DNA from: Pyxidicoccus trucidator
GTDB taxonomy: Bacteria > Myxococcota > Myxococcia > Myxococcales > Myxococcaceae
Length of the DNA: 64,000 bases
Assembly: GCF_010894435.1 (NCBI RefSeq)
Contig: NZ_JAAIXZ010000012.1
Coordinates: 1-64,000 of the forward strand
Direction: 5' to 3'
How positions within the stretch are numbered: position 1 is the first letter of the stretch; each line of letters starts with the position of its first letter. Positions 34,258 through 63,907 of the stretch are shown piece by piece. The notes under the pieces are model-generated. The model did no database searches and was not told the DNA's origin. It worked only from the letters and a program-made list of their open reading frames with translations. Both the position numbers and the translations under genes were made by a program.

Positions 34258-34352
34258 CGGGCGGGCAGCCGGTCGGTCCTCCTTCCGGGCGGACATGCCC
34301 GGCGAGGTCAGGAGATGGACACCCTCCTGGGGAAAGGCAGCATCGGAGACGT

Positions 34353-35741
34353 ATGGGAAGCGAGGACGTCGTCACAGCGCTGCGCCGGGTACCGCTGTTC
34401 TCCCGGCTCACCGACGAGCAGCTCGGGTGGATTGCCGACCATGGCCGGCAGCTCCACTTCACGGCGGGCATGCGCATCGCCGCGCAGGGAGACCCGGCGG
34501 ACGGCCTGTCCGTCATCCTGGAAGGCAGCACCGAGTGGACGCGCCGCGTGGGCGCGCAGGAGGTCCCCACCGCGATGCTGAAGGCGGGCGACCTCTTCGG
34601 CGAGCTCATCCTCTTCCTGAACTCGCCCCACCCCACCACCGGCCGCGCGGTGACGGACGTGCGGCTGTTCCGCCTGGAGCCGGCCACCTTCTGGGAGCTG
34701 CTGCGCGTGGCGCCGGTGCTCATGCGGGGGCTGATGGAGCTGGCCTCGCAGCGCTCGCAGCCCCACGAGACGAGCTCCCGGCAGCAGGCGGAGCTGCTGT
34801 CCGCCGGGCAGCTGGCGGCGGGCGTGGCGGGAGAGCTGGACAACCCCTCCTCGTCCGCCCGCCGGAGCGCGGCGCGGCTGCGCGAGACGCTGCACACGCT
34901 GTCGGCGCGGGCCATGGCGCTCGGCGAGCAGAACCTGTCCTCGGCGCAGCGCGGAGCCCTGCTCGCCCTGCCCCGCGAGGCCGCCGAGCGCGGCAGGACG
35001 TCCCCGCTGCTGGAGCCCGTGGCGAGGGCGGTGCGCGAGGAGTCGCTGGGAAGCTGGCTGGAGTCGCACGGGGTGGCGGAGGCGTGGGAGGCGGCGCCCG
35101 TGCTGGTGGCCTCGGGGCTGGACGTGGCGTGGCTGGAGTCGGTGTCCACGCGGGTGGGCGAGGCGCTGCTGGGCGACGTGCTCGCGTGGCTGGTGGCGGC
35201 GGTGACGGGCGACGTGCTGCTGGCCGAGGTGGAGCGCGGCACGGCGCGAGTCTCCACCCTGGTGGAGGCGATGAAGGCCTACAGCTTCCTGGACCCGATG
35301 CCGGCCCAGGAGGCGGACCTGCACGACGGCCTGGAGCGCGCGCTGGCGGTGCTGGACCACCGGCTGTCGGGCGGCACCATCACCGTGGAGCGCCAGTACG
35401 AGCGGAGCCTGCCGCGGCTGAAGGTGGAGGACGGCGCGCTGGAAGAGGTGTGGACGCAGCTGGTGCTCAACGCGGTGCAGGCGCTGGGTGAGGGCGGCGG
35501 GCGCGTGCGCCTGCGCACCTGGGCCGAGCCGACGCGCGTGGTGGTGGAAATCTCGGACGACGGGCCGGGCATTCCGAAGGACCTCATGCCGCGCGTCTTC
35601 GAGCCCTTCTTCAGCACGAAGCCCGAGGCCGCGGGCCTGGGGCTGGACGTCAGCCGCCGCATCATCGAGCGGCACGGCGGAGACCTGCGCGTGCTCTCCG
35701 AGCCCGGTGGCACGCGCGTCCAGGTGCGCCTTCCCGTGTAG
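34353..35741 (+). CDS. cNMP-binding histidine-kinase-like protein lacking the phospho-acceptor His
   Basis: 462 residues from the ATG at 34353 (GGAG 4 bases upstream). Residues 5-125 are a cyclic-nucleotide-binding/CRP-type domain (VPLFSRLTDEQLGWIADHGR, then AGDLFGELILF). At 150-180 is the dimerisation helix, but the usual AHELNNP block reads VAGELDNP: Gly160 (GGA at 34830-34832) stands where the phospho-acceptor His should be. Residues 350-462 are a complete HATPase domain with N373 (LVLNAVQAL), DDGPGIP, FEPFFSTK and GLGLDVS. It may bind ATP and regulate a partner without self-phosphorylation on the usual site. No response regulator lies next to it. Confidence 0.78.
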   Translation: MGSEDVVTALRRVPLFSRLTDEQLGWIADHGRQLHFTAGMRIAAQGDPADGLSVILEGSTEWTRRVGAQEVPTAMLKAGDLFGELILFLNSPHPTTGRAVTDVRLFRLEPATFWELLRVAPVLMRGLMELASQRSQPHETSSRQQAELLSAGQLAAGVAGELDNPSSSARRSAARLRETLHTLSARAMALGEQNLSSAQRGALLALPREAAERGRTSPLLEPVARAVREESLGSWLESHGVAEAWEAAPVLVASGLDVAWLESVSTRVGEALLGDVLAWLVAAVTGDVLLAEVERGTARVSTLVEAMKAYSFLDPMPAQEADLHDGLERALAVLDHRLSGGTITVERQYERSLPRLKVEDGALEEVWTQLVLNAVQALGEGGGRVRLRTWAEPTRVVVEISDDGPGIPKDLMPRVFEPFFSTKPEAAGLGLDVSRRIIERHGGDLRVLSEPGGTRVQVRLPV

Positions 35742-35975
35742 TGGGGAAGTCGGGACAGGTGCCCGGATGTCCGGCGCCGCACGGGCGCGGCATCCACCGG
35801 GTGACGGAAGCGGCGTGTCGAGGGGCCGAGAGCGTCGCCCGCTGCACGTGTGGCCGGCGGGCGGATGGGCAGCGGCGGCCCGGAGGCGTGGACTGCCGGT
35901 CCCCCCGTGTCACGCCGACCCGCGTGTACACTGAAGCCCTCGCGGCGTCCGCTTCATCGCGGACAGGAGGCTCGC

Positions 35976-36473
35976 ATGTCCGGTGAGATTCAGGGCGCCT
36001 GGTTCAAGGCCATTCTCGGCTCGATGACCGCGGCCTCCTCGCGATTCCCCGAGCACCAGGTCCGCATCAACAGCATGCGAGATGACACCTGGTACGCGTG
36101 GGAGGACTACGTCCGCATGGCGGGCGAGCTCCAGGCGGCGCTGGGAGACCGGGCGGTGGAGGCGATTGCCCAGCGCTCGGCGATGCGCATGCTGCCGCTG
36201 GCGCGCTCGGTGGGCTTCGACTCGGTGGAGAAGGTGTTCGGCGACTTCGACGCGCTCGTGCGCGGCATGGTGAGAGGCCTGCCGGCGACGGACTCCACGC
36301 GCACCGTGTCCTTCATGCCCCTGACGGCGGAGCTGGAGACCACGACGCGCCTGCCCAACTCGCTGCTGCTGGGCACCTTCCGGGGGCTGCTCATGGGCTT
36401 CGGGAAGATTGTCACCGAGGCGAAGGTGACGACGCGCGGAGGGCTGCGGCGGTTCTCGCTCCGGTGGATGTGA
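35976..36473 (+). CDS. Hypothetical cytosolic protein
   Basis: Not recognised with confidence. 165 residues from the ATG at 35976, which follows GGACAGGAGG; the farther frame to 35850 lacks a ribosome site. The middle (RDDTWYAWEDYVRMAGELQA, later MRMLPLARSVGFDSVEKVFG) is helical, and the C-terminal third looks beta-rich. It recalls short Myxococcales-restricted proteins with a heme-NO-binding-like layout, but no heme His can be pointed to. It lies 37 bases upstream of the oxidoreductase gene and may share its transcript. Confidence 0.6.
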   Translation: MSGEIQGAWFKAILGSMTAASSRFPEHQVRINSMRDDTWYAWEDYVRMAGELQAALGDRAVEAIAQRSAMRMLPLARSVGFDSVEKVFGDFDALVRGMVRGLPATDSTRTVSFMPLTAELETTTRLPNSLLLGTFRGLLMGFGKIVTEAKVTTRGGLRRFSLRWM

Positions 36474-36510
36474 CGCGCACGGGCCGGCGGGCTCTGGCAG
36501 GCTCGCGTCC

Positions 36511-37521
36511 ATGGTGCGCATCGGCGTCATCGGGACGAAGTGGGGCCTCATGCACGTGGGGGCCTTCCGCGCGGCGGGCGCGGAGGTGGCGGCCCTCTGC
36601 GGACAGCGCCTGGACAACACGCGCGCGGTGGCGGCACGCGAGGGCATCCCCCTGGCCACCACGGACCTGGGCGAGCTGTGCGCCGCCGTGGACGCGGTGG
36701 TGGTGGCCTCGCCCGACGGCGTCCACCGGACCCACGTGGAGGCGGCGCTGAACGCGGGCCTTCCTGTCCTCTGTGAGAAGCCGCTGACGCGCACCGTCGA
36801 GGAGGCTCGCGCGCTGCTGGCCCGCGCCCGCTCCGCCACGAGCCCGAGCGCGGTGAACTTCCCCTACCGCATGCTGCCCCCGGTGCGCGCGCTGAAGGCG
36901 TGGCTCGCGGAGCGGCCGGTGCGCCACCTCGCCCTCACCCTGCGCAATGGCTTCGCGTCGGATGAGGGGGACACCGCCGGGCCCCTGCTCGGCGCCTCGG
37001 GCGACTGGGGCGGCATGTCCCACATCATCGACGCGGCGCTGTGGCTCGCGGGGGCCGCTCCCGTCTGGGTGCAGGCGTCACTGTCCGGCCGGCCCGTCCA
37101 CACCGCCGCGCTGCACGTGGGGCTGTCCTCGGGCGCGGTGCTGGTGCTCACCCACGCGGCCTGCCCGGAGCCGGGCATCCACGGAGGCTGGACGTTGCTG
37201 GGGGGCGGGTGGGAGGCGGGCTTCTCCGGTGGCTACGTGCCGTCACGCGGAGGCTGGTGCGTGTCCCCGGTGCGCGGCTTCGAGCACGGCACGTGGACGG
37301 ACATCGCCCCGGGCCTGGAGCCACACCCCGGCGAGCGCGAGCCCTGGGCGCAGGCCCACGTCGAGGGCGCGCGTCGGTTCCTCGACGTGCTGCGAGGCGG
37401 GCCGCGTGACGGGCTGGCCACGCTGGAGGAAGGCGCCACGGTGCAGGAGGTGCTGGCCGCGGCCATGCTGTCCGAGGAGCAGGGCCGGCGAATCCCCCTG
37501 GAATCGCGCCCGGGGGCATGA
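36511..37521 (+). CDS. Gfo/Idh/MocA family oxidoreductase
   Basis: NAD(P)-dependent dehydrogenase, 336 residues. The N-terminal Rossmann fold reads IGVIGTKWGLMHVGAFRAAG; the second strand ends at VVASPDGVH, and the family motif EKP is present (VLCEKPLT). The C-terminal half carries the substrate domain with GGMSHIIDAALWLAG, where the family's substrate-pocket His can be placed. Substrate, perhaps a sugar or polyol, cannot be told from sequence. Confidence 0.85.
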   Translation: MVRIGVIGTKWGLMHVGAFRAAGAEVAALCGQRLDNTRAVAAREGIPLATTDLGELCAAVDAVVVASPDGVHRTHVEAALNAGLPVLCEKPLTRTVEEARALLARARSATSPSAVNFPYRMLPPVRALKAWLAERPVRHLALTLRNGFASDEGDTAGPLLGASGDWGGMSHIIDAALWLAGAAPVWVQASLSGRPVHTAALHVGLSSGAVLVLTHAACPEPGIHGGWTLLGGGWEAGFSGGYVPSRGGWCVSPVRGFEHGTWTDIAPGLEPHPGEREPWAQAHVEGARRFLDVLRGGPRDGLATLEEGATVQEVLAAAMLSEEQGRRIPLESRPGA

Positions 37522-50658: not shown

Positions 50659-52692
50659 CTACTTGCTGTCGAGCACGAAGACGCCATCCCAGTCCTCGGG
50701 CGGCGGCGAGAGGAGCATGGACTCGCAGCGCGCGGCGAAGCGGGCCGAGGCCTTGTCCTCCGGAGACGCGAGGAAGGCGAGGCGCGCGGCGGCGAAGTCG
50801 CGCTCCCGGTAGAGGGCGAGCCCCTCGGCGAAGCGCGCGAGGTGGGGCGGGGGCGGAGTGTCCGCCCGGCCGACGAGCTCGAACACGCGGACCGGCTGCT
50901 GCTTGCCCTTGACGCGCACAAGGTCCAGCTCGCGTGCCCGCACCACGCCGCGCGCGGCGGTGAGGGTGTCCTCGGCCACCAGGGTGCGGGTGCCGTAGAA
51001 CTTGGCGGCGCCCTCCAGCCGCGAGGCGAGGTTCACCGCGTCGCCGATGACGGTGTAGTCCTGGGCCACGCTGGAGCCGATGTTGCCGGCGATGGCCTGC
51101 CCGGTGTTGATGCCGATGCGGCAGTCGAGCCGGGGCAGCCCCCGCGCCTCGAACATGGGCGCGAGCCGCTCCACCACCGCCACCAGGTCCAGCGCGGTGA
51201 GGCACGCGCGCGCCGCGTGGTCTTCTTGCGGAAGCGGCGCGTTCCAGAAGCACATGATGGCGTCGCCGATGAACTTGTCGAGCGTCGCACCGTGCTGGGT
51301 CAGCACCCCCGTCGCCTGCTCGAAGTAGGTGTTGAGGAGGGCGACGAGCTCTTCCGGGCTCATCTGCTCGCTCATGGAGGTGAAGCCCACCAGGTCGCTG
51401 AAGAGCACGGTGAGCATCTTCCGCTCGCCGCCGGGAGCGGCCTTCTCAGGGTGCTTGAGGAGCTCGTCCACCACCTGGGGTGAGAGGTAGCGCTTGAAGA
51501 GGCCCTTGATCTGGTCCCTCTGCCGCAGGCCGCCGACCATCTCATTGAAGGACTGCGCCACCCGGCCCACCTCGTCCGTGCCCCGCACGGGCACCTCGAC
51601 GGAGAGGTCCCCCAGGCGCACCCGGTCCACCGCCGCCTCCAATTGCACGAGCGGCGCCGCCATGCTCCGCGCCATGAACACCGCCGCCGCCAGCGCGAAG
51701 AGCGCCATGCCCACGGCGGTGGGGATGAACCAGCGATGAAAGCGCTGGAGGATGGGGTTGATCTCCGCGTCGAAGTCGCGCAGCACGAACACCTGGCCGA
51801 TGCTGGCGCCGTCCACGCCGCGCAGCACGTCCTCTCGCACGAGGTAGTGCGTGTCCCCGAGGTACAAGTCGCGGGCCTGACCCGGCTGCCAGCCGTCGCT
51901 CTCGAACCGGGTGCCGACAGGGACCTGTGAGGCCAGCGCTCCGTCCGTGGCGCGCACGGCGAAGCGGGCGCGGGTGTCCGCCACCTGGGGGCTGGAGGCG
52001 CGCGGTTCCGTCAGGTCCTCCAGCAGCACGTCCCCCACCCACTGGCCGGACAGCACCACGCCCACCACGACCACCTTGTCCTTGTCCCGCCGCGCACCAG
52101 TGGCCGGCTGGGCGTGGACGAGCATCAGGTCGCCCTCGCGGAGCTGCTCCGGGGGGACGAAGGTGAAGGGCAGCGCGCGGAGCTGGGCGGGAGACCAGAG
52201 CGCGGAGGCCGGGCCGCCGCGCAGCGCCGTGTCGAGCAGGGGGATGGACAGCGGCCCGTCGCCCAGCTGCTCCGAGTCCGCGCGGGTGTAGACGAGGCGG
52301 CCGCTGGCATTGAAGAAGGCCCAGGGCAGCAGGGCGCCGCGGCTCCAGCCGAAGGCCTCGGTGTCCGCGGAGTCGATGACCTCGCGGGCGCTGACGATGC
52401 CCTCCGTCTCCGAGCTCGCGTCGCCGAGCCCGGCCTCGGCGTCCAAGGAGTTCACCGACAGGGACATCTCCTTGAAGGAGCGGTCCCGCGTCCGCGTCTC
52501 GGCCACGTCGCGGGTGCGCTTCTGGCTGGCCCGGGCGCGCTGCTGAAAGTCCTCCAGCGTGCGCTCCAGGTAGCTGGCGATCTTCTCCTCCGCCGCCGCC
52601 CGCACCACGAAGGTGGTGAGCAGCAGCGCCGAGGCGAGCGCCGTCCCCGCGAGCGCCATGAAGGCGAGGCTGAGCTTCCGGGAGAGCGTCAC
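50659..52692 (-). CDS. Membrane adenylate/guanylate cyclase with HAMP domain
   Basis: 677 residues from a GTG. N-terminal membrane helix at about 8-33, a periplasmic sensor domain (about 35-330), a second helix at about 333-352 and a HAMP domain (ARSMAAPLVQLEAAVDRVRL). The class III cyclase domain (about 420-610) has the metal Asp in LFSDLVGFTS and GDAIMCFW, and the transition-state block DAVNLASRLE with Asn and Arg, so it looks active. The substrate-specifying residues suggest adenylate (a Lys in LDKFIGD), but this was read by eye. Linked to thiL and the MCP by 9-base gaps. Confidence 0.86.
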   Translation of the reverse strand: MTLSRKLSLAFMALAGTALASALLLTTFVVRAAAEEKIASYLERTLEDFQQRARASQKRTRDVAETRTRDRSFKEMSLSVNSLDAEAGLGDASSETEGIVSAREVIDSADTEAFGWSRGALLPWAFFNASGRLVYTRADSEQLGDGPLSIPLLDTALRGGPASALWSPAQLRALPFTFVPPEQLREGDLMLVHAQPATGARRDKDKVVVVGVVLSGQWVGDVLLEDLTEPRASSPQVADTRARFAVRATDGALASQVPVGTRFESDGWQPGQARDLYLGDTHYLVREDVLRGVDGASIGQVFVLRDFDAEINPILQRFHRWFIPTAVGMALFALAAAVFMARSMAAPLVQLEAAVDRVRLGDLSVEVPVRGTDEVGRVAQSFNEMVGGLRQRDQIKGLFKRYLSPQVVDELLKHPEKAAPGGERKMLTVLFSDLVGFTSMSEQMSPEELVALLNTYFEQATGVLTQHGATLDKFIGDAIMCFWNAPLPQEDHAARACLTALDLVAVVERLAPMFEARGLPRLDCRIGINTGQAIAGNIGSSVAQDYTVIGDAVNLASRLEGAAKFYGTRTLVAEDTLTAARGVVRARELDLVRVKGKQQPVRVFELVGRADTPPPPHLARFAEGLALYRERDFAAARLAFLASPEDKASARFAARCESMLLSPPPEDWDGVFVLDSK

Positions 52693-53402: not shown

Positions 53403-54151
53403 ATGAGCCTCGGCATGAAGCGGGGGGTTTCGGAGGACACGGCCGTCAGGCCGAACATTGTGCCAGCGGTCAGCCAGGTCCGGCCGAAGGACCACGCCAC
53501 GCTCGGGCCGACGAAGAGGTGCGGGTCCTGGTCCAGCTCCCGCAGGCCGAACTCGCCGAAGGACTCGAGCGACAGCCGCAGCTCGTCCGGGATGAGGGGA
53601 TAGGACACCCCGGCGGAGTACGTCCCGAGGACGCGGGCCGGCCCCCCGTCGCCGCGCAGCGCGGGGATGCCCACCTGCAAGCCGAGGTCGAGCACCAGCC
53701 GCAGCCCGCTCTCCAGTTGGTACGAGCCGACGACGTCCACGTCCACGCGCGACGGGCCCGCCGTGTCGATGGCCTGGTGCCACACCGCGCGCACCAGCGG
53801 CTGGAAGGCGCGGTCATCGCCCCGGGGGAAGAGCCGGTAGCGGAAGTCGGCCTCGAAGGACTCGAGCTCGGTGACGTCGCGGTTGGCGCGCACCTGGAAG
53901 GGGATGGCCAGCTCCAGGTGCTGGCTCAGCCCGAGGACGGGGCCCCACCATATCCAGTACGCCGAGGGCCGCTCGGGAAACGCGGGAGCGCGGCTCCGGG
54001 CCCACAGCCACTGCTCCAGCTCGACATCGCCCTTGGGCGTGATTTCGGTGTCGAACGTCCAGATGAAGGGGCGACGGCCGGCCTCCGCGGGTGCGGCCCA
54101 CGCCAGCCCCACGAGACATGCCATCACTGCCGCCAGGCGGGCTGCGCGCAT
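53384..54151 (-). CDS. Outer-membrane beta-barrel-like protein
   Basis: 255 residues from the ATG at 54151 (GGAG 5 bases upstream; the frame to 54202 is not used). After a signal peptide (ACLVGLAWAAPAEA) come alternating hydrophobic strands typical of a barrel (LELAIPFQVRANRD, FEADFRYRLFP, LRLSLESFGEFGL), ending with a strand-like hydrophobic block RLIWAVAL. No family recognised. It is the first gene of the run that passes through the cyclase, thiL and the dif-like genes. Confidence 0.65.
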   Translation of the reverse strand: MRAARLAAVMACLVGLAWAAPAEAGRRPFIWTFDTEITPKGDVELEQWLWARSRAPAFPERPSAYWIWWGPVLGLSQHLELAIPFQVRANRDVTELESFEADFRYRLFPRGDDRAFQPLVRAVWHQAIDTAGPSRVDVDVVGSYQLESGLRLVLDLGLQVGIPALRGDGGPARVLGTYSAGVSYPLIPDELRLSLESFGEFGLRELDQDPHLFVGPSVAWSFGRTWLTAGTMFGLTAVSSETPRFMPRLIWAVAL

Positions 54152-54221
54152 TGAATCTCCCCGCCCCCGGACCTCGGGGACGCCTGCGCGAGTGACTATC
54201 ACAGGCCGTCCGCCGTCGAAC

Positions 54222-55154
54222 CTACTCGCTGCGCCGGTCTTCCTCTCCGAAGAGCTGGCTGAGGCTCACGTCGAGCTGGCTGTCCAGCACGGACAGGAAG
54301 CTCTGGAAGCCTCCGGCGGAGAGGTTCAGCCGGGCCTGCAGGTGGCGCCGGGTCTCCTCGTAGATGTGCTGCCGCGCGCTCTTCACCCAGCGCGACACGG
54401 TGGACTGGTTCACCCGCAGCAGCGCGCCCAACTCCGTGGTGGACAGCCGGTCGACGAAGTAGAGGCGGAGCAGGTGCCGCTCGTCGGAGGACAGCGTGGC
54501 GAAGGCCTCGCGCAGGGCCTGGCGGAACTCCACCTGGTGGCGCTGCTTGATGAGGTCCAGCTCCGCGTCGATGCCCGGCGAGGGGAGCGCCTCGAGCACC
54601 TCGGCCACGTGCTCGTCGGAGGCGGGCCTGTCGGCGGCGCGGAGCTTGAGGGCAATGCGCACGGCGGTGACCCGCACCCAGCTCATCAGCGCGCCCCGGC
54701 CGCTGTAGTCCAGGATTCGCGGCGCGTTGTCGGGCGTGCGGAGCAGGAGCTTCACGCGCGTCAATTGACAGACGTCATCGAGCTCCGCCGAGGACTGTTT
54801 CAGATAGGCGAGCAGTCCCGGCAGCTTCGCCAGGTAATGCTGCTCGAAGACCTCCGTCGCGGTGGGAAGGCCCTGCACGCACGCGCACGCGAGATAGAGC
54901 TCCTCCAGCGAGAGCAGCTCGAGGAGCGCGGTGATGGAAGTGTCGGGGCCCGCCTCGGGCAGCCGCTCGGCGAGGTGCTTCACGAACAGCGCGGGAGGAA
55001 GCGACACGGTATTCCACCGCGCGCGTGAGGAATTCCACGCACGGTTGAGAAGACTTTCGAGCGCGGGGATGTCCCCTGGAGCCACCTGCCGTCCCCTGGC
55101 ATGTGCCAGAAGTGTTGCCACCAGCTCCGGCGCGTCTCCCATGGTGTGCCCCAT
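54222..55154 (-). CDS. Sigma-70 factor of the Myxococcales family 1 type
   Basis: 310 residues. The N-terminal 120 residues contain helical motifs specific to the family (LLELLSLEELYLACACVQGL, then FEQHYLAKLPGLLAYLKQ). Region 2 (about 125-165, LDDVCQLTRVKLL, MSWVRVTAVRIAL) and region 4 (about 210-265, LSSDERHLLRLYFVDRLSTT, NQSTVSRWVK) are clear. This matches the TIGR03001-type sigma factors known only from Myxococcales. It is divergent from the giant kinase-STAND gene 78 bases away, whose first 60 residues include an Hx3Cx2C motif like that of anti-sigma factors, so the two may be partners. Confidence 0.8.
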   Translation of the reverse strand: MGHTMGDAPELVATLLAHARGRQVAPGDIPALESLLNRAWNSSRARWNTVSLPPALFVKHLAERLPEAGPDTSITALLELLSLEELYLACACVQGLPTATEVFEQHYLAKLPGLLAYLKQSSAELDDVCQLTRVKLLLRTPDNAPRILDYSGRGALMSWVRVTAVRIALKLRAADRPASDEHVAEVLEALPSPGIDAELDLIKQRHQVEFRQALREAFATLSSDERHLLRLYFVDRLSTTELGALLRVNQSTVSRWVKSARQHIYEETRRHLQARLNLSAGGFQSFLSVLDSQLDVSLSQLFGEEDRRSE

Positions 55155-55232
55155 CCCCTCGCACCCCGTCGGCGGGCGAGGGGGGTGTTGAAAAGCTGTC
55201 AGTCTGTTTGCGAGACTCTCGCACCACTCACC
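55155..55232. promoter_or_regulatory. Divergent sigma/kinase promoter region
   Basis: 78 bases shared by two divergent genes. No clear promoter box or operator was found; the kinase ATG has no good ribosome site, which would fit a leaderless transcript. Confidence 0.35.
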
Positions 55233-58200
55233 ATGACTTCGTCAAACCCGGCCCACGCGGGGGCGGCCGGCCCCCCTTGTCTGTCCGATGAGCTCCTGGT
55301 GGCATTGATTGAAGGCCGGCTGTCTTCCACCACGCTGGCCGACGTCCACCTCCACGCCGCCGGGTGTGAGGCCTGCCGGACCCTGATGGCCACCGTCGCC
55401 CGGGGTGGCCTGGCCGGAGTGGCGGAAGTGCAGGCAGTCCGTCCGGAGGACCATACCCAGACACTGCCCGGAGCCGTTCCGGCGGCGTTGCCCCCGGCCG
55501 AAGCGAAGCCGCCTCCCGCCGAAGCGGTGCCACCTCCCGGGGCGCCATGGACACCTCCCGCCGAGTTCGACGAGTTCCAGCTCGGGCCGCAGCTGGGCCG
55601 GGGCGGCATGGGCGTCGTGTACCTGGCGCGTGACAAGTCCCTGGGCCGGCGCGTCGCGGTGAAGTTCATTGCCTCCTCCCACCAGCCCCGAGCCTCGGTC
55701 CGCGCGCGCTTCGAGACGGAGGCGAGGGCCATCGCCCGCCTGCAGCACCCCAACGTCGTCACGGTGTTCCGCATCGGCACGGCGGGGGGCCAGCCGTACA
55801 TCGTCTCCGAGTACATCCTCGGGCGAAGCCTCTCGCAGCTGCCGTTGCCCCTGCCCTGGCGACGGGTGCTCACGTTGGGGTTGGGCCTTGCTCGCGGGCT
55901 CGCGGCGGCGCACCGCCAGGGCGTGCTGCACCGGGACCTCAAGCCGTCGAACGCACTCGTCACCGATGACGGCGTGGTGAAGCTGCTCGACTTCGGGCTG
56001 GCCGAGTACTTCGACCTGAACGCCTCCGCGCTGCCCGCCCGAGCGCGCGCCCACGCGGGTACGCCGCGCTACATGGCGCCCGAGCTGCTCCGCGGCGAGC
56101 CCTCGTCCCCCCAGAGCGACCTCTACGCGCTCGGCGTCACCCTCTACGAGCTGTGCACGGGCAGCGTGCCGCCGGGTGCTCCGGCCAGGATGCTGTCCAG
56201 CGGCGCCGGGGGCACGGTGGTGACAGGCCCGGAGAGCGAACCGCCGCCGCTCCCGCCGGACGTCGATGCGGAGCTTGCCACGCTCATCCGCCACTGCCTC
56301 GCGCCCGACCCGGCCGAGCGCCCCGCGTCGGCCGACCTCCTCCGCGAGGCCCTGGAGCGCCTGGAGCAGATGTACTCGGCGGCGCCGCTCGCGGCCGGCA
56401 ATCCCTACCGGGGGCTCGCGCCCTTCGAGGCGGAGCACCGTTCGCTGTTCTTCGGCCGCGACGCCGACATCCGCGCGGTCATCGAGCGGCTGCGCCTGCA
56501 GCCCATGGTGCTCGTTGCGGGCGACTCAGGCGTGGGCAAGTCCTCGCTGTGCCGGGCCGGCGTGCTGCCCCGGGTGGCCGCAGGCGAGCTGGATGCGAAC
56601 CGGGACATGGCCACGGTGACGCTCTGGCCGGGGCCCCGGCCGCTCCAGGCGCTCGCAGCGGCACTGGCGCCCAGGCTGGACATGAAGGAGGCGGACATCG
56701 TCCTCGCGTTGACGGGGATGGATGGCTGGCTGGGGCCGGCGTTGCGCACGGCGCACCAGGGAAGGCGCGGACTGCTCATCTTCATCGACCAGATGGAGGA
56801 GCTGCTCACGCAGTCCGAGCCCCTGCAGGCCGCGCGCTTCGCGCACGTGCTGGGCGAGCTGGCCCTGCCCTGCCCCGGGGTGCGGGTGCTCCTGTCGGTG
56901 CGCGGCGACTTCCTGACGAGCATCTGCTCACTGCCCGGCCTGGGAGAGGACGCCGAGCGCGGGCTCTACGTCCTCCGCCCGCTGGCACCCGCGGGCGTGC
57001 GCGAGGCCATCGTCGGTCCGGCGCGAAGTCGGGGTGTGGCCTTCGAATCCGAGGAGCTCATCCAGACGCTGGTCAAATCCATGGCGCACGGAGAGGGCAG
57101 CCTGCCCCTCCTCCAGTTCGCACTTGCGGAGCTGTGGGAACGGCGCAACCCGGCGCACAGCCGCATCACCCGGGTGGCGCTGGAGGAGATGGGCGGCGTG
57201 GCCGGAGCGCTGTCCCGGCACGCGGACGGGGTGCTCGCGAGGCTGACGTTGGTGGAGAAGCAGGCGGCGCGAAGTCTGCTGCTGCACCTGGTGACGGAGG
57301 ACGGCACTCGGGTGGAGGTGGGTGAGGAGGAGCTGATGCCGACGCGGGACGCAGCGCCCCGCACGGCGCTGCGCGCGCTCACCGAGGGGCGGCTGCTCCA
57401 CGCGCACACGGTGAATGGCGAAGCCCGGTACGTGATTGCGCACGACTCGCTCATCGGAAGCTGGGGCACGCTGCGCAACTGGAGGGACCGCGACATCGGC
57501 CAGCGCGCGGTGCGCGAGCGCGTGGAGACGGCCAGCGCCGAGTGGGAGCGCCTGTCACGAGCCCGCGAGACGCTGTGGGGACAGCGGCACATCGACGAGG
57601 CCCGCGCGCTGGACCCCGTCACGCTGGGCCCCCGGGAGCGAGCGTTCCTCACAGCGTCGAGGCGAGCACTGCGGCTCCAGCGGTGGGGCAAGGCCTTCGT
57701 CGCGCTCGGAGTCGTGCTCGCCCTCGTCGCGGTCCATGGCGGCCTTCGCCTGCATGGATACCTGGAGGACGCGCAGTTCATCGCAGGCCAACTCACGGCG
57801 GCCGAGGCAGACTTCGTGGCGGGGGAGCACCTGGCGGAGACGGCCCTGGCACTTCGCGAGGAAGCGCTCCCCCTGTTCGACGGCCGGACCGCTCCTTCGG
57901 CGGGTACGTCGGAGCATGACCTCTGGACTCTTCCCGGGAAGCTCTGGACCCGGGCGCGTCAGCTGCGCAAGCATGCCGACGGGGCCTTCGCCCGTGCCAC
58001 CAACTCACTGGAGAAGGCGCTCGAACGCCAGCGGAGCCACGGGGACGCGCGCCGGCTCCTCGCGAAGGTCGTCTACAAGCGGATGGAACTCGCCGAGGAC
58101 TTCCACCTGGAAGAACCGGCCGCCGAGCTGCGAGAGCGGCTGGAACGGGTGGTGGACGAGACGGACGAAGAAGGCTGGCTGTACCGGCTCAATGCCAAAG

Positions 58201-59282
58201 CGAGGCTTGAGGTGGTGACGGAGCCTCCGGGCGCACGCGTCGAGGTCAGCCTCTATGTGAAAGATGACCAGGGCGCGCTGCGCCTCGAGCCCCAGACGCC
58301 ACTCGGCACGACGCCCGTTGTCGGCTCGCTGAGCGCGGGCTCGTATCTCCTTCGCCTCACCCTGCCCGACCACGCTCCTGTCGACGTGCCGGTGCACCTC
58401 ACGCGCGGGGGAAATGAGAAGGTCCAGCTTTCGCTGCCGACCTCCGTTCCGGACGGATATGCGTATGTGCCACCGGGGTGCTTCCTGCTGGGCAGCGCCG
58501 ACGTCGAGCCAATGCGGATGTTCCAGCGAGCCTCGCCGCTCCACCGACTCTGCTTCCGTGCGGGCTACCTCATCGGGCGAACGGAGGTGACTTTCGGCGA
58601 CTGGTTGACCTATCTGGACTCCCTCCCTCCTGGAGCCACGGCGAGACGCATCCTCGAAGAGCCGCGCGCCAACGGCAGCGGCAAGGCCATTACCCTGCGG
58701 CACCAGCCCGGCGCAGGTTGGACGTTCTCCCTGCACCTCACGGGTGAGTCCAATCTCTCCGCGCGTGAGGACGAACCGTTCCACTACCCGGAGAGGGCTC
58801 GGCGCCGTACCGCCAACTGGCGCAAGTTCCCACTGTCCGGGGTCTCCGCAGACGACCTCGTGGACTACTTCAAATGGCTGGACCACCCGGAGCGCCTTCC
58901 TGGAGCGCGCCTGTGCAGCGACCAGGAGTGGGAGTACGCCGCACGGGGGGCCGATGGTCGCGACTACCCCCACGGCAACAGCCTGGAGCCGGACGACGCC
59001 AACATCGACGCGACCTATGGACGTGTACCTTTGGCCTTCGGCCCCGACGAGGTCGGCTCGCATCCGACGTCGGTGAGCCCCTTCGGGCTCATGGACATGG
59101 TGGGCAATGCCCTGGAGCTCACACGACCCGTGACGGGGGACCTGGGCAGCATCGTCGTGAAGGGCGGAGCCTGGTACTACGACTCCGACACCGCGCGCGC
59201 GGCCAACCGCAGCACGGGAGACCCCATCCTCCGCGATGCACTGGTGGGCGTGCGCGTCTGCGCCCCGCTCTCACCCCGGTAG
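55233..59282 (+). CDS. Zinc-finger/Ser-Thr kinase/STAND NTPase/PEGA/SUMF1-like fusion protein
   Basis: 1349 residues from the ATG at 55233. Residues 15-60 carry Hx3Cx2C (H41, C45, C48) like a ZAS anti-sigma. The kinase domain spans 115-380 with LGRGGMGVVYLAR, K144, HRDLKPSN (233-240) and DFG (253-255), so it should be active. A STAND-type NTPase follows with NPYRGLAPFEAEH, Walker A GDSGVGKSS (430-438) and Walker B LLIFIDQMEE. One membrane helix lies at about 815-838. A PEGA-like domain at about 991-1070 (EPPGARVEV) precedes a formylglycine-enzyme/SUMF1-like domain at 1072-1347 (CSDQEWEYAARG, DMVGNALELTR). The orientation suggests the PEGA and SUMF1 parts face the periplasm and the kinase and NTPase the cytosol. 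SUMF1 in such fusions may be a binding domain rather than an enzyme. Confidence 0.85.
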   Translation: MTSSNPAHAGAAGPPCLSDELLVALIEGRLSSTTLADVHLHAAGCEACRTLMATVARGGLAGVAEVQAVRPEDHTQTLPGAVPAALPPAEAKPPPAEAVPPPGAPWTPPAEFDEFQLGPQLGRGGMGVVYLARDKSLGRRVAVKFIASSHQPRASVRARFETEARAIARLQHPNVVTVFRIGTAGGQPYIVSEYILGRSLSQLPLPLPWRRVLTLGLGLARGLAAAHRQGVLHRDLKPSNALVTDDGVVKLLDFGLAEYFDLNASALPARARAHAGTPRYMAPELLRGEPSSPQSDLYALGVTLYELCTGSVPPGAPARMLSSGAGGTVVTGPESEPPPLPPDVDAELATLIRHCLAPDPAERPASADLLREALERLEQMYSAAPLAAGNPYRGLAPFEAEHRSLFFGRDADIRAVIERLRLQPMVLVAGDSGVGKSSLCRAGVLPRVAAGELDANRDMATVTLWPGPRPLQALAAALAPRLDMKEADIVLALTGMDGWLGPALRTAHQGRRGLLIFIDQMEELLTQSEPLQAARFAHVLGELALPCPGVRVLLSVRGDFLTSICSLPGLGEDAERGLYVLRPLAPAGVREAIVGPARSRGVAFESEELIQTLVKSMAHGEGSLPLLQFALAELWERRNPAHSRITRVALEEMGGVAGALSRHADGVLARLTLVEKQAARSLLLHLVTEDGTRVEVGEEELMPTRDAAPRTALRALTEGRLLHAHTVNGEARYVIAHDSLIGSWGTLRNWRDRDIGQRAVRERVETASAEWERLSRARETLWGQRHIDEARALDPVTLGPRERAFLTASRRALRLQRWGKAFVALGVVLALVAVHGGLRLHGYLEDAQFIAGQLTAAEADFVAGEHLAETALALREEALPLFDGRTAPSAGTSEHDLWTLPGKLWTRARQLRKHADGAFARATNSLEKALERQRSHGDARRLLAKVVYKRMELAEDFHLEEPAAELRERLERVVDETDEEGWLYRLNAKARLEVVTEPPGARVEVSLYVKDDQGALRLEPQTPLGTTPVVGSLSAGSYLLRLTLPDHAPVDVPVHLTRGGNEKVQLSLPTSVPDGYAYVPPGCFLLGSADVEPMRMFQRASPLHRLCFRAGYLIGRTEVTFGDWLTYLDSLPPGATARRILEEPRANGSGKAITLRHQPGAGWTFSLHLTGESNLSAREDEPFHYPERARRRTANWRKFPLSGVSADDLVDYFKWLDHPERLPGARLCSDQEWEYAARGADGRDYPHGNSLEPDDANIDATYGRVPLAFGPDEVGSHPTSVSPFGLMDMVGNALELTRPVTGDLGSIVVKGGAWYYDSDTARAANRSTGDPILRDALVGVRVCAPLSPR

Positions 59283-59356: not shown

Positions 59357-59420
59357 GGCTCCTCTCCCTTGAAGGCGCCAGATTCATGCCGGCGCCTCAT
59401 CTCAACGGAGAGGTACGTCG

Positions 59421-60488
59421 ATGAACGCGCTGAAGAAGTCCCTGCTCACCTTCGTGTGCCTGCTGCTCTGCCCGCCGGTGTTCGCAGCCGCCCCGGCGCC
59501 CCTCCCCACCGCCAAGGGTCGGACAGGCCGTGTTGGCACCACGACAGCGGTCCTCGACCGGTACGCACTCCGGTGCCAGGGGCGGGCGCCCCAGCGAGAT
59601 GTCAGGACCCAGAGCACGGCGTTGTGGGGCACGAAGCTGACCTGGGACCCAGAGCAGGTGACGGACGAGCGGCGCAGCGTGCTCGCGTCCATTGACGGCG
59701 AGGCGGTGCGGAAGGCCGCGGCCGGGGTGAAGGCGCTGCGGCTGGAGGAGGGTCGGCTGGTGGTCTGGCCCGAGTCCTCCAGTGACGTCGTCGGCACGGT
59801 GCTCCAGGGAACGGACACCGAGAACAACCCGGTGGAGGTCGCCATCTGCGGCGCCGAGCCCTCGGCCGACGACCCCTCGGTGGAGTGGTACCGCATCGAG
59901 GCCTGGAACGCGGTGGCCCAGGAGTGGGAGAACCCGTGCCAGGCCAACGCCCTTGCACACTCGCCCCGGGCATTGGCGGTGAGCGGAGTCTGGGACATCA
60001 CCGGGGCGCGTCAGGATGTGCCGGGCCGGGTGACACTGGCCTGTGAGACTGGCGCCATCAGCAAGTGCGTGAACTGGGGGTACAAGCCGTGGGCCGAGCG
60101 TGATGGGAAGTCGCTGGCGGACCTGCACCAGGCGTGCACGCGGATGGCGCGCGCGGACTACTGCGGCAATGGCCGGAGCCACACGCTGAACGGCACCGAC
60201 ATCGACATGTACGACGCCTTCGGCATGCTCAAGCGGACGACACACGCTTCGTCGAGTTGGAACCCGGCGCATGCTTCGTTTGAAGCGGCGTGGGCTCCGG
60301 ACGGCGCGGCCTGCCTGGCGCGGACCCGGTATGGACAGACGCTGGAGTCCATCATGCGGGAGTGCCCCGGCCGCTTCCGCACGGACGGCGCGGTGGACTT
60401 CGAAGACGGCGACCGCTGCGTGGTGCGACGCGAGAACGTGACTCCCGGGACGGTGCTGCTGCGCAACCGTTCCTACGGGAAGCACTGA
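59421..60488 (+). CDS. ADYC-domain exported protein
   Basis: 355 residues. A signal peptide (LLTFVCLLLCPPVFAAA) precedes a domain with the ADYCGNG motif at about 250 that names the ADYC family, plus several conserved Cys (C at about 53, 151, 173 and others) that probably bond. GGAGAGG precedes the ATG. ADYC proteins are known mainly from myxobacteria and have no assigned function. The gene lies between the kinase-STAND fusion and the TPR-CHAT gene, set off by hairpins on both sides. Confidence 0.75.
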   Translation: MNALKKSLLTFVCLLLCPPVFAAAPAPLPTAKGRTGRVGTTTAVLDRYALRCQGRAPQRDVRTQSTALWGTKLTWDPEQVTDERRSVLASIDGEAVRKAAAGVKALRLEEGRLVVWPESSSDVVGTVLQGTDTENNPVEVAICGAEPSADDPSVEWYRIEAWNAVAQEWENPCQANALAHSPRALAVSGVWDITGARQDVPGRVTLACETGAISKCVNWGYKPWAERDGKSLADLHQACTRMARADYCGNGRSHTLNGTDIDMYDAFGMLKRTTHASSSWNPAHASFEAAWAPDGAACLARTRYGQTLESIMRECPGRFRTDGAVDFEDGDRCVVRRENVTPGTVLLRNRSYGKH

Positions 60489-60513
60489 GACATCGTCACC
60501 GAGGCACAACATG

Positions 60514-60574: not shown

Positions 60575-63500
60575 ATGAGGAGCGTGCTGGGTTGGACGAT
60601 GGTCGTCGTCCTGTGCTGTGCGCCGCGTGTTGCGGCGGCCGAGGAGGCAACGGATGCGCGGTTGCTGGAAGCCAAGACGGCATTCGATGAGGCAGCCAAG
60701 CTTCGAAAGGCTGACCAGATCGCTGAAGCCATTCTACAAAGCGAGCGCGCACTCACGCTGCGAGAGGCAGCGCTCGGCGCCTCGCATCCAGAGGTGGCCA
60801 CCTCTCTTAATCAATTGGGTGGCCTTTATCGGCGAAAGAGGGACATGTCACGGGTGGAGCCTCTCCTTCAACGCGCTCTTGCCATTCGGGAAGCAGCCCT
60901 CGGCCAGAATCATCTCGACGTCGCCGACTCGCTCACCAGCCTTGCTTGGCTCTATTCCTCCCAAGAACTGCATGCGCGCGCCGAGCCGCTATTTGAGCGC
61001 GCGCTTGCCATTCGAGAGGCACTCCTAGGTCAGAACCATCCCGACGTCGCTGCTGCGCTCGACCACCTCGCCTCGCTCTATGCCTTCCAGGGTCTGCATG
61101 CACGCGCCGAACCACTATTTGAGCGCGCACTCGCCATTCGGGAAGCCCTTCCAGGCCAGAACCATTCCAGCATCGCTGCCTCGCTCACCAGCCTCGCCTT
61201 GGTCTACTCCTCCCGGGGGCAGCGTGCTCGTGCCAGGCCACTATATGAGCGCGCACTCGCCATTCAGGAAGCCTCCCTGGGCAAGAACCATCCCGACGTC
61301 GCTGCCGCGCTCGACCACCTCGCCTCGTTCTATAATTTCCAAGGGCTGCATGCCCGCGCCGAGCCGCTGTATGAGCGCGCGCTCGCCATTCAAGAAGCTA
61401 CACTGGGCAAGAACCATCCCGATGTCGTCGACTCACTCACAAACCTTGCTCGGGCCTACTTCTTCCAAGGGCTGCATGCTCGCGCCGAGCCACTGTTTGA
61501 GCGCGCGCTCGCCATTCAAGAAGCCACACTGGGCAAGAACCATCCCGACGTCGCCGACTCGCTCAACAACCTCTCCTCGCTCTACATCAACCAGCGACTG
61601 CTTGCTCGCGCCAAGCCGCTGATTGAGCGCACGCTCATAATTTGGGAAGCGCTCGGAAAACATTCCAGTGTTGCTGCGTCACTCGACAGCCTTGCCCGAA
61701 TCTACATCAACGAGGGGTTGCACACTCGGGCCGAGCAACTGATGAAGCGCGCGCTCGCCATTCGAGAGGCGACTCTGGGCAAGGACCATCCCGACGTCGC
61801 CGACTCGCTCATCAGCCTCGCCGGGCTCTACGACGCGCAGGGGCTCTCCGCTCGCGCAGTGGCTTTGCAGGAGCGCGCGCTCGCAATCTGTGAAGCTGAT
61901 CATGGTAAAAACGACATCAGTACAGCCAACTCAAGCACCAACCTCGCTAGCCTCTACTTCCACCAGGGCGCCTACGCCCGGGCCGAGACATTGGAGAAGC
62001 GCGCTATCTCCATTTGGGAGTCTTCCCCCAACAGGTATTATCCCCTCGGTATAGATTCGCTCTACAGCAGCCTTGCGCGGAGCCAACTTGCTCAGCACCG
62101 GCTTGACGAGGCCGTTCCACTTCTGACACACGCATTCGCACTTTCCGAAGAACGCCTGCGACAGGAATCGCTCGACTTCTCTGAATCACGCTTGGAGAGA
62201 TTCCTCCGGCGTCTCCGCTATGACGAGGAATACATCTATGCCATTGCCCGCGCGCATCCCGACAACGTCGGCGTGCAGCGACTGGCCCTCTCCTCCGTGC
62301 TGCTGCGCAAGGGCCGCTCCGTCGAGCAGATTGCCGACACCTCTCGCACTGTCTATCGCAGTCTCGGCCCTCAGGACCGTGACACCTTCGAACGACTGCG
62401 CGGCCTGCGCACTCAACTAGCCCAACTTTCTCTCAAGGGTCCAGGCTCACTTACCCCCGCTGACTACCAGCAGCGCATGAAGATCCTTGCCGACCAGGGT
62501 GACGCGCTCGAGGCTGATCTTGCCAGGCGCTCCGCGCCCCTGCGTGCACTGACCACGTTGCCGTCCCCCAGCGAGATCGTTGAGCGCGTTGCCGCCACCC
62601 TCCCTCCAGACGGCGCCCTCATTGAGTTCATCGCCTACGCGGACCGCCCCCTTGTCCAAAGCCGGCTGGTACGCCTGCCACAACATCCTTCCCAGCTTCG
62701 CTATCTCGCACTGATTCTCTTCCCGGATTCGAGCATCCGCATTCTCGACCTCGGCCCCGCGGACCGCATCGACCGTGCTGCCTCGAAGCTACGCAATGCC
62801 CTGGCCCGCCGTGACGCCGACTACCATCGTCCCGCACAGGATCTCTACGACCTCGCCTTCCGGCCCCTCCTGCCGCTCCTCGGTGATGCCCGCCGCATAT
62901 TCCTGGCTCCGGATGGCCAGCTCGGCCTCATTCCCTTCGACACGCTCCATGATGGCGAGCGATTCCTCACCGAGGCCTTCGACTTCTCCTACCTCACCTC
63001 CGGGAAAGACCTGCTGCCTCGGCCCCAGGGACTCTCTTCGGCGCAATCCGTGGTCGTCTTCGCCGACCCTGCCTTCGAAGCTCGGCTGGACACAACCTCA
63101 TCAACAACCAGCAATACCCCCTCCGACGTCCAGCGTTCCCCTGCCGTCGAGCGCTTCTTCTCGACACTGCGGAAACGCTGGGCCGGTGAACCCTGGACGC
63201 CGCTGCCCGGCACTCGCCAGGAAGCCGCGGCCATCCAGCGTCTTCTCCCTCAGGCGCAACTTTTTCTCGGCGCCGAAGCCACGAAGCAGCGACTCCTCCA
63301 GCTCATCACGCCAGGCATCCTCCACATCGCCGCCCACGGCTTCTTTCTGGATGACGCCGCAGCCACACCGGACGCCCGTGCCGTCGGCCACTTTGGCGGC
63401 CAGGGTCGCGGCACTCCGGCTTCGGTCCCAGCCGACCCGCTGCTCCGCTCCGGCCTCGTCCTCGCGGGTGCCCAGGCCCCCACGACGAGCGACTCCGGCA

Positions 63501-63907
63501 CGTCCAACACCCAGGCCGAAAACTCCATGGTCACCGCCCTCGAGTTCGCGGGCCTCAACCTCTGGGGCACCCAGCTCGTCGTCCTGTCCGCCTGCGATAC
63601 GGGCCGTGGCGACGTGAGGCTCGGTCAGGGCGTCTACGGCCTGCGCCGCGCCTTCATCATCGCGGGCGCGGAAACGGTGGTGATGAGCCTGTGGAAGGTG
63701 AACGACGACATCACCCGCCTGTTGATGGAAGACTATTACCGTCACTTGCTGGCTGGCCAAGGCCGGGCCGAAGCCCTACGCGACGCGATGCGGACCCTGC
63801 GCCAGACCCACCCGCATCCCTACTATTGGGCGCCCTTCATTGCACTGGGCCGTGACGCGCCGCTGCAATCGCTCACACCCGCCCCTGCGGAACAGCCCGG
63901 CCAGTAG
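60575..63907 (+). CDS. Exported TPR-CHAT peptidase
   Basis: 1110 residues. A signal peptide (MVVVLCCAPRVAAAEE) precedes about ten tetratricopeptide repeats of the 42-residue kind (LTSLAWLYSSQ, RAEPLFERALAIRE) at about 50-500, then a helical region and a C-terminal CHAT domain (about 760-1100). The catalytic His is in HIAAHGFF (H921) and the Cys in VLSACDTG (C1007); both are intact, so it should be a clan CD peptidase like separase and caspases. At DNA level the repeats are nearly identical over 126 bp (for example 61381 and 61507), and base use is richer in A and T than in neighbours, hinting at recent origin or transfer. CHAT proteins elsewhere act with TPR partners in defence and death pathways; here sensor and peptidase are one chain. 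Confidence 0.85.
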   Translation: MRSVLGWTMVVVLCCAPRVAAAEEATDARLLEAKTAFDEAAKLRKADQIAEAILQSERALTLREAALGASHPEVATSLNQLGGLYRRKRDMSRVEPLLQRALAIREAALGQNHLDVADSLTSLAWLYSSQELHARAEPLFERALAIREALLGQNHPDVAAALDHLASLYAFQGLHARAEPLFERALAIREALPGQNHSSIAASLTSLALVYSSRGQRARARPLYERALAIQEASLGKNHPDVAAALDHLASFYNFQGLHARAEPLYERALAIQEATLGKNHPDVVDSLTNLARAYFFQGLHARAEPLFERALAIQEATLGKNHPDVADSLNNLSSLYINQRLLARAKPLIERTLIIWEALGKHSSVAASLDSLARIYINEGLHTRAEQLMKRALAIREATLGKDHPDVADSLISLAGLYDAQGLSARAVALQERALAICEADHGKNDISTANSSTNLASLYFHQGAYARAETLEKRAISIWESSPNRYYPLGIDSLYSSLARSQLAQHRLDEAVPLLTHAFALSEERLRQESLDFSESRLERFLRRLRYDEEYIYAIARAHPDNVGVQRLALSSVLLRKGRSVEQIADTSRTVYRSLGPQDRDTFERLRGLRTQLAQLSLKGPGSLTPADYQQRMKILADQGDALEADLARRSAPLRALTTLPSPSEIVERVAATLPPDGALIEFIAYADRPLVQSRLVRLPQHPSQLRYLALILFPDSSIRILDLGPADRIDRAASKLRNALARRDADYHRPAQDLYDLAFRPLLPLLGDARRIFLAPDGQLGLIPFDTLHDGERFLTEAFDFSYLTSGKDLLPRPQGLSSAQSVVVFADPAFEARLDTTSSTTSNTPSDVQRSPAVERFFSTLRKRWAGEPWTPLPGTRQEAAAIQRLLPQAQLFLGAEATKQRLLQLITPGILHIAAHGFFLDDAAATPDARAVGHFGGQGRGTPASVPADPLLRSGLVLAGAQAPTTSDSGTSNTQAENSMVTALEFAGLNLWGTQLVVLSACDTGRGDVRLGQGVYGLRRAFIIAGAETVVMSLWKVNDDITRLLMEDYYRHLLAGQGRAEALRDAMRTLRQTHPHPYYWAPFIALGRDAPLQSLTPAPAEQPGQ

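Follow-up and report, generated by a model that had tools for sequence, protein, structure and literature searches.

A predicted membrane Ser/Thr kinase–STAND NTPase with an anti-sigma-like zinc element, encoded beside a TIGR03001 sigma factor in Pyxidicoccus trucidator

The window analysed here is a 64,000-nucleotide stretch of the 12.67-Mb genome of Pyxidicoccus trucidator (contig NZ_JAAIXZ010000012.1, positions 1 to 64,000 of the forward strand). Towards its right end it carries a gene for a multidomain Ser/Thr protein kinase that begins with a zinc anti-sigma (ZAS) element and, divergent from it, a gene for a sigma factor of the NCBIfam family TIGR03001 (Sig-70_gmx1; Table 1). Comparisons across Myxococcota tie the zinc element of such kinases to TIGR03001 genes, which bears on how this sensor kinase might control transcription.

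The kinase–STAND protein and its zinc element

A first-pass annotation made from the letters alone had described the protein as a five-part fusion, divergent from a sigma-factor gene. Pfam searches by segment and hydropathy bear out both points: the chain is composed of a zinc motif, an intact kinase, an nSTAND1 NTPase, one membrane helix, a weak PEGA-like segment and an FGE/SUMF1-like end, and the neighbouring sigma factor scores above the TIGR03001 cut-off. The Pfam matches are to zf-HC2 at residues 20-49 (21.4 bits, just short of the 22.2 cut-off), Pkinase (159.8 bits), nSTAND1 (PF20703; 318 bits, E 2e-94) and FGE-sulfatase (85.2 bits); the PEGA match does not reach its cut-off. The kinase domain has a PknB-like fold and contains K144, E163, HRD and DFG. 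The Walker A motif of the NTPase, noted earlier as intact, reads GDSGVGKSS, and Walker B (FIDQMEEL) is present too; an 11-row alignment (A2) shows conservation of the key residues in both domains. As hydropathy indicates a single membrane helix, the zinc element, kinase and STAND domain would be cytoplasmic and the FGE end would lie outside. The start of the gene was set at 55233; an ATG further upstream (55101) would overlap the sigma-factor gene. A MAFFT alignment of the intergenic region from 17 loci, inspected by eye, revealed no promoter motif convincingly shared among them.

Table 1. Positions of the features discussed (in the window, unless another contig of the same genome is named)
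Feature	Position	Strand	Size and basis
TIGR03001 (Sig-70_gmx1) sigma factor	54222..55154	-	310 aa; 307.9 bits, TIGR03001 cut-off 154.6
Divergent intergenic region, sigma and kinase genes	55155..55232		78 bp
ZAS–kinase–nSTAND1–membrane helix–PEGA–FGE protein	55233..59282	+	1349 aa; open reading frame, Pfam
ZAS element, C16-x24-H41-x3-C45-x2-C48	55278..55376	+	residues 16-48; Pfam, alignment, profile search, AlphaFold helices
Ser/Thr protein kinase domain	55578..56345	+	residues 116-371; Pfam, catalytic residues, PknB-like fold
nSTAND1 NTPase domain	56403..57566	+	residues 391-778; Walker A 430-438, Walker B about 514-523
Single membrane helix	57690..57752	+	residues about 820-840; hydropathy
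Weak PEGA-like segment	58302..58439	+	residues about 1024-1069; Pfam 16.8 bits, below cut-off 20.8
FGE/SUMF1-like (C-type lectin fold) ectodomain	58464..59258	+	residues 1078-1342; Pfam, model, Foldseek, profile
ADYC-domain (PF20032) protein	59421..60488	+	355 aa; E 8e-55; signal-peptide-like N-terminus (by eye)
TPR-CHAT (caspase-like peptidase family) protein	60575..63907	+	1110 aa; CHAT 252 bits; signal-peptide-like N-terminus (by eye)
Candidate ZAS-CHAT place, contig C13	about 34126-37047
Candidate ZAS-CHAT place, contig C23	about 84556-87414
Candidate ZAS-CHAT place, contig C28	about 54038-56992

The zinc motif had been called anti-sigma-like on the basis of Hx3Cx2C. A fourth ligand, Cys16, lies upstream and extends it to the complete anti-sigma signature C-x24-H-x3-C-x2-C, the spacing that we take from ChrR and RsrA to be that of ZAS domains. 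Consistent with this, a profile of the element matches anti-sigma structures. A search of the Protein Data Bank returned seven sequences up to E 1, with only 3hug and 8rlz below E 0.01. The best match, 3hug (E 1.9e-5), is entitled 'probable conserved membrane protein' and is presumably RslA. The others are DdvA (8rlz, E 0.002), a CHAT-domain entry matched via a segment identical to that of DdvA (8rot, E 0.04), ChrR twice (2q1z, E 0.046; about 0.05), RsiW (5wuq, 0.91) and one ferritin (0.38); thus, four of the seven are named anti-sigma entries (DdvA, two ChrR and RsiW). The AlphaFold model shows three helices within residues 19-56, where the pLDDT of the blocks is mostly about 83.

Pairing of the zinc element with TIGR03001 genes

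At E 1e-40, TIGR03001 was found in 108 of 195 genomes from Myxococcota, against none of 14 controls; a single genome (G057) has up to 15 members above the cut-off. Beyond Myxococcota and the controls, the survey comprised a plasmid search, which gave one weak match in Granulicella. The family name was not found mentioned in the literature searched.

In the P. trucidator genome, a kinase gene lies near each of the 11 TIGR03001 genes, and all 11 kinases carry the ZAS element, with C-x24-H-x3-C-x2-C aligned at constant spacing. At least 14 ZAS-kinases occur among at least 154 kinase matches (150 of 651 candidates scored), and 11 of the 14 are sigma-linked (hypergeometric P 2e-14). Four near-closed genomes contain 38 sigma genes, of which 37 have a kinase close by, each with the full motif (in L275 with His as first ligand); the exception, L056, has no kinase nearby. 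A further set of 60 loci, chosen for spread over genomes before the neighbours were read, gave pairing of 60 of 61 sigma genes (exception L226), again with the full motif on 60/60 kinases. Pairing extends to other Myxococcota families and sparse genera (17 of 21); of the four unpaired genes there, L197 has a ZAS element in a neighbouring frame, the kinase of L196 runs off its contig, the kinases beside L198 lack ZAS and L199 has no kinase. When all sets are pooled, 125 of 131 TIGR03001 genes lie near a ZAS-kinase gene, kinase and full motif being required on one reading frame. As the motif is kept in the kinases beside 11/11 sigma genes of this genome and 37/38 of the near-closed genomes, it is more than a chance arrangement of residues. 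The ligands are also invariant in a 93-row set (first Cys in 92 rows, one gap), although this set was chosen partly by the motif, so that the invariance is partly built in. His replaces the first ligand in at least two homologues (L192, L275).

A count based on distance only, in ten genomes, placed at least 55 of 70 sigma genes near ZAS, most misses falling in two fragmented assemblies. The 55 pairs are divergent (18), kinase-first (18) or kinase-second (19). The similar frequency of the three layouts suggests that adjacency of the sigma gene and the ZAS-kinase gene has outlived rearrangement. Of nine further sigma-linked kinases that were scanned (L021 excluded), seven (L011-L013, L017-L020) end in TPR repeats and have no STAND-FGE half, suggesting that the sensor half of sigma-linked kinases is interchangeable.

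Within the kinase–STAND family, the zinc element and the sigma gene are present or absent together. A TIGR03001 gene occurs at 20 of 21 loci with ZAS and at 0 of 38 without it (Fisher P 8e-15; these loci are related by descent, and a few records may repeat species). L030, where the contig ends, was excluded, and for 21 of the 38 ZAS-less loci the flanks covered about 1.5 kb; where at least about 4.5 kb was available to either side, the sigma gene is found at 0 of 15 (restricted Fisher P 3e-9). One relative (L061), 65% identical to the window protein, has neither the zinc segment nor the sigma gene and keeps the remainder. In a tree of 44 STAND domains, from which rows with a first matched stretch below 300 residues were dropped, 13 ZAS-bearing rows and the ZAS-lost L061 and L087 form one group (support 94/91), and L061 and L087 are nested within a 99/99 subgroup. 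As the ZAS-lost rows lie within the ZAS-bearing group, ZAS was probably gained once and later lost together with its sigma gene; L061 and L087 may represent one loss or two (support 46/50). One sequence, L078, from a record titled Comamonas sp. KCTC 72670, groups among myxobacterial sequences, and the record is probably misnamed or contaminated.

The first-pass annotation had named absence of the pairing in relatives as evidence against its reading. The pairing is instead conserved throughout the phylum and tracks the zinc domain, and for these reasons control of the sigma factor by the ZAS-kinase appears well supported.

Sigma and ZAS distance matrices correlate at 0.858 over 93 pairs (the 104 available minus sigma factors at least 90% identical), whereas within-genome shuffles of the partners average 0.333 and reach 0.858 in 0 of 1000 cases. 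Passages of PMC7406223 report 0.82 for extracytoplasmic function (ECF) sigma factors and class I anti-sigma factors, with controls of 0.5-0.6. Over all pairs, the sigma–ZAS correlation exceeds the sigma–kinase correlation and is matched by 0/500 variability-matched subsets, 0/278 contiguous windows and 0/500 random subsets of the kinase. Mean-field direct coupling analysis had only 93 pairs to draw on (about 70 effective) and yielded no set of sigma–ZAS contacts that could be interpreted.

The ectodomain and the genes downstream

The ectodomain had been described as SUMF1-like and external. The external position stands, as deduced from the single membrane helix. A model of residues 842-1349 has a pLDDT of 86, and Foldseek gave 13 matches below E 0.001, including EgtB and the Treponema variable protein TvpA (2y3c), the last two being STAT3. 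A sequence profile of the FGE domain matches, among others, ToxD, SUMF2, OvsA, CalU17, PvdO and SUMF1. What does not carry over from SUMF1 is the catalytic cysteine pair: residues 1229-1342, the region that holds it in SUMF1, contain no Cys. As the cysteine pair of formylglycine enzymes is absent, the domain is more likely a binding domain than a working enzyme. Diversification by a diversity-generating retroelement (DGR) was considered, since the TvpA match shows the appropriate fold, but is not supported for this gene: a 203-base search of the same genome, with 40 of 139 candidates scored and no search for a reverse transcriptase, found no template repeat, the matches being a paralogue on contig C10 (68%), a weak one inside a homologue on C13 and short ones as high as E 1.

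Downstream of the kinase–STAND gene and on its strand lie genes for an ADYC-domain protein and a TPR-CHAT protein; the first-pass annotation had overlooked the ADYC gene and had not recognised the TPR-CHAT gene as a conserved neighbour. The TPR-CHAT protein contains CHAT-like His and Cys motifs. In the same genome, five of six ADYC matches lie within about 6 kb of the genome's four kinase–STAND–FGE genes (chance about 2e-11). Among relatives, an ADYC gene occurs at 17/17 distinct ZAS-bearing loci, at both ZAS-lost loci and at 29 of 36 others; a repeat (L077) was removed from these counts, and the ZAS-bearing L085, cut by a contig end with no ADYC visible, was taken out. Of the seven loci without ADYC, three (L086, L090, L092) have no FGE match, and at four (L037, L039, L041, L083) the flanks are short or the contig stops. 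TPR-CHAT relatives are more restricted, being present at 15/17 ZAS-bearing, 2/2 ZAS-lost and 0/36 other loci; at five of the 15 (L063, L064, L070, L071, L075) the TPR part alone is inside the stretch, and 21 of the ZAS-less loci searched had flanks of about 1.5 kb. In the P. trucidator genome, four of 27 CHAT matches lie near two sigma-linked STAND loci (chance about 2e-6). Together, the distributions of ADYC, TPR-CHAT and sigma genes indicate that ZAS goes with the sigma factor and FGE goes with ADYC. 'ADYC domain' was not found mentioned in the literature searched.

Just beyond the window end (L262, G000:C12:63000-76000), a second ADYC gene is followed by a second TPR-CHAT gene, so that the pair is present twice. 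An open reading frame antisense to the ADYC gene, 59397-60512 (-), was judged spurious (third-position GC 0.65 versus 0.89). On the other side of the locus, a protein with HAMP and adenylate/guanylate cyclase domains is encoded at 50659-52692 (-) (Pfam).

Possible modes of action and related systems

On balance, it is probable that the membrane sensor kinase is its own anti-sigma factor and frees the sigma factor on an outside signal. The ZAS domain would hold the divergently encoded TIGR03001 factor at the membrane. A signal outside the cytoplasmic membrane would be read by the FGE/C-type-lectin ectodomain together with ADYC, its apparently secreted partner. To judge from the families involved, signal binding might lead to nucleotide exchange and clustering of nSTAND1, and this clustering might bring kinase domains together for mutual phosphorylation. 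Phosphorylation of ZAS, of the disordered linker of about 40 residues or of the bound sigma factor would then free the latter. For this release step there is a precedent: in Mycobacterium tuberculosis, phosphorylation of the anti-sigma factor RshA by PknB frees SigH, as described in passages of PMC8999054 and PMC13147305. The first-pass annotation had proposed a one-protein route from an outer signal through NTPase switching to kinase and sigma control; its sigma end is the part carried by the conserved pairing that tracks ZAS, whereas the step from NTPase switching to kinase is an inference only.

Several observations weigh against this proposal. Association of ZAS and the sigma factor is strongly supported, whereas contact between them is putative. 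Passages of PMC7406223 assign 12 of the 14 top class I anti-sigma contact predictions, toward sigma region 2, to helix 4, and a fourth helix is not clear in the AlphaFold model, where the linker (residues 60-103) is below pLDDT 50. In one homologue (L027, G012:C110), the third zinc ligand is changed from Cys to Tyr and the sigma gene is present and intact. Some partners stand alone: L076 is a kinase–STAND locus with ZAS and no sigma gene; L052, L053 and L054 (C5, C20 and C1 of the P. trucidator genome) are ZAS-kinases with no sigma gene nearby, and these orphans may have their target sigma factor elsewhere in the genome; conversely, L056, L199, L226 and L057 (G034, outside the pooled sets) are sigma genes that have no kinase in the vicinity; and the kinases beside the sigma gene L198 have no ZAS. 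The correlation is also ambiguous. Among distant pairs (sigma distance >0.5), the sigma–ZAS value (0.369) is below the sigma–kinase value (0.532), and 293 of 300 matched kinase subsets reach it. Because the order reverses in this way, the sigma–ZAS excess over sigma–kinase was dropped as evidence of contact; the correlation may reflect a block inherited together, which is compatible with contact and does not prove it.

A conflict receptor, for antiphage defence or kin recognition, is an idea that overlaps with the anti-sigma proposal and is possible but unlikely. The FGE domain would sense a foreign ligand, STAND would cluster, TPR-CHAT would be the effector and the sigma factor would set expression of the locus. 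Passages of PMC10907252 and PMC8195603 describe putative conflict loci in multicellular bacteria that encode nSTAND1, kinase, CHAT and C-type-lectin/FGE domains, and the ZAS profile leads to DdvA, which matches a CHAT-domain Protein Data Bank entry and whose partner DdvS drives an antiphage island (passages of PMC12288465). The first-pass annotation had called STAND NTPases central to bacterial conflict and programmed death. The neighbouring TPR-CHAT gene, with relatives at ZAS-bearing and ZAS-lost loci, makes a conflict role more plausible than that annotation could tell; a tie to programmed death would be conjecture. However, the TPR-CHAT protein looks secreted, no close CHAT relative occurs at the 36 ZAS-less kinase–STAND loci outside the clade (short flanks at 21, as above), the search of the same genome found no DGR template repeat for the FGE end, and 25 of the 33 PADLOC matches listed align to the kinase domain.

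An activating role for the kinase is doubtful. ZAS would be a docking site and not an inhibitor, recruiting the sigma factor for activating phosphorylation, for which Ser285 is the candidate site. This residue (54300-54302, -) lies in a conserved Ser-rich tail beyond region 4 and is invariant in 93/93 aligned TIGR03001 factors, and sigma factors activated by Ser/Thr protein kinases are known, namely EcfP with PknT and EcfK with PknS (passages of PMC8999054, PMC8103513 and PMC13147305). A ZAS model without a clear helix 4 would also suit docking. Yet Ser285 may be either a phosphorylation site or merely a helix cap, and the named ZAS relatives in the Protein Data Bank are anti-sigma factors. 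Moreover, according to passages of PMC8999054 and PMC8103513, ECF43 factors such as EcfP and EcfK have no DAED motif and acquire charge through phosphorylation. TIGR03001 factors do not show this hallmark, in which DAED is replaced by uncharged, phosphorylatable residues; they have acidic residues at the two region 2.2 positions in 104/104 and 92/104 (both acidic in 92/104). Because this pair is kept, they look unlike ECF43 factors, whose charge depends on phosphorylation.

That the block is an old duplication held together by descent, with ZAS serving as a zinc module for structure or redox sensing that has nothing to do with the sigma factor, would account for the correlation by co-inheritance and for ZAS-kinases without a nearby sigma gene (L052-L054, L076), but is very improbable given that pairing persists over three layouts, extends to other families of the phylum, and that ZAS and the sigma gene are missing together where the rest of the kinase is kept.

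If the kinase is its own anti-sigma factor, it would differ from both kinase routes to sigma control in the literature covered, in which either the sigma factor or a separate anti-sigma factor is phosphorylated (passages of PMC8999054, PMC8103513 and PMC13147305). Like PknB–RshA–SigH, the window system has kinase, anti-sigma and sigma functions in one pathway, but there kinase and anti-sigma factor are separate proteins, whereas here the kinase and the anti-sigma-like domain share a chain. The genes for EcfP–PknT and EcfK–PknS likewise place a Hanks-type kinase gene beside a sigma gene, and the passages covered name no anti-sigma domain in PknT or PknS. RslA, ChrR and RsiW have anti-sigma domains like ZAS, none of them named as kinase-fused. 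The window protein also shares domains with nSTAND1/FGE and CHAT conflict proteins, including DGR targets (in passages of PMC10907252, DGR loci from a multicellular bacterium are listed with nSTAND1, kinase, CHAT and lectin/FGE domains, and a passage of PMC8195603 names nSTAND1), but has a sigma gene as its paired output and no DGR template found. A kinase fused to an anti-sigma domain, paired with TIGR03001, was not found described in the literature searched, which excluded the 2021 ECF reclassification (NAR gkaa1229) and two DdvA/DdvS papers.

A broader proposal is tentative and falls a little short of an even chance: Myxococcota would possess a phylum-wide class of kinases carrying their own anti-sigma domain, each with a dedicated TIGR03001 factor, and in one branch a STAND NTPase with a lectin-fold ectodomain would take the place of the usual TPR half, accompanied by ADYC as a secreted co-sensor and TPR-CHAT as a secreted peptidase, the output being a transcriptional programme and not a fused killing domain. 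Under this proposal, myxobacteria would wire immune-receptor-like sensors straight to gene control. If confirmed, it would give each ZAS-kinase an obvious first target and provide a STAND receptor with transcription as its output. With pairing at both ends (ZAS with sigma, FGE with ADYC), input and output are both directly testable.

In spirit, the nearest relative of the window protein is DdvA of Myxococcus xanthus (8rlz, 8rot), which is likewise a myxobacterial transmembrane anti-sigma factor with a sigma factor, DdvS, and which the ZAS profile matches. DdvA is so called in the title of a 2024 paper cited in PMC12288465; passages of the latter have DdvS controlling an antiphage island. Comparison with DdvS is by description only. 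The entries and passages covered mention neither a kinase nor a STAND NTPase for DdvA, and the CHAT domain at the window locus is on a separate protein. At three places in the P. trucidator genome (Table 1), a weak ZAS match (E 0.006-0.03) lies on the same strand as a CHAT match and within the length of one open frame, and this genome may thus encode three DdvA-like ZAS-CHAT proteins.

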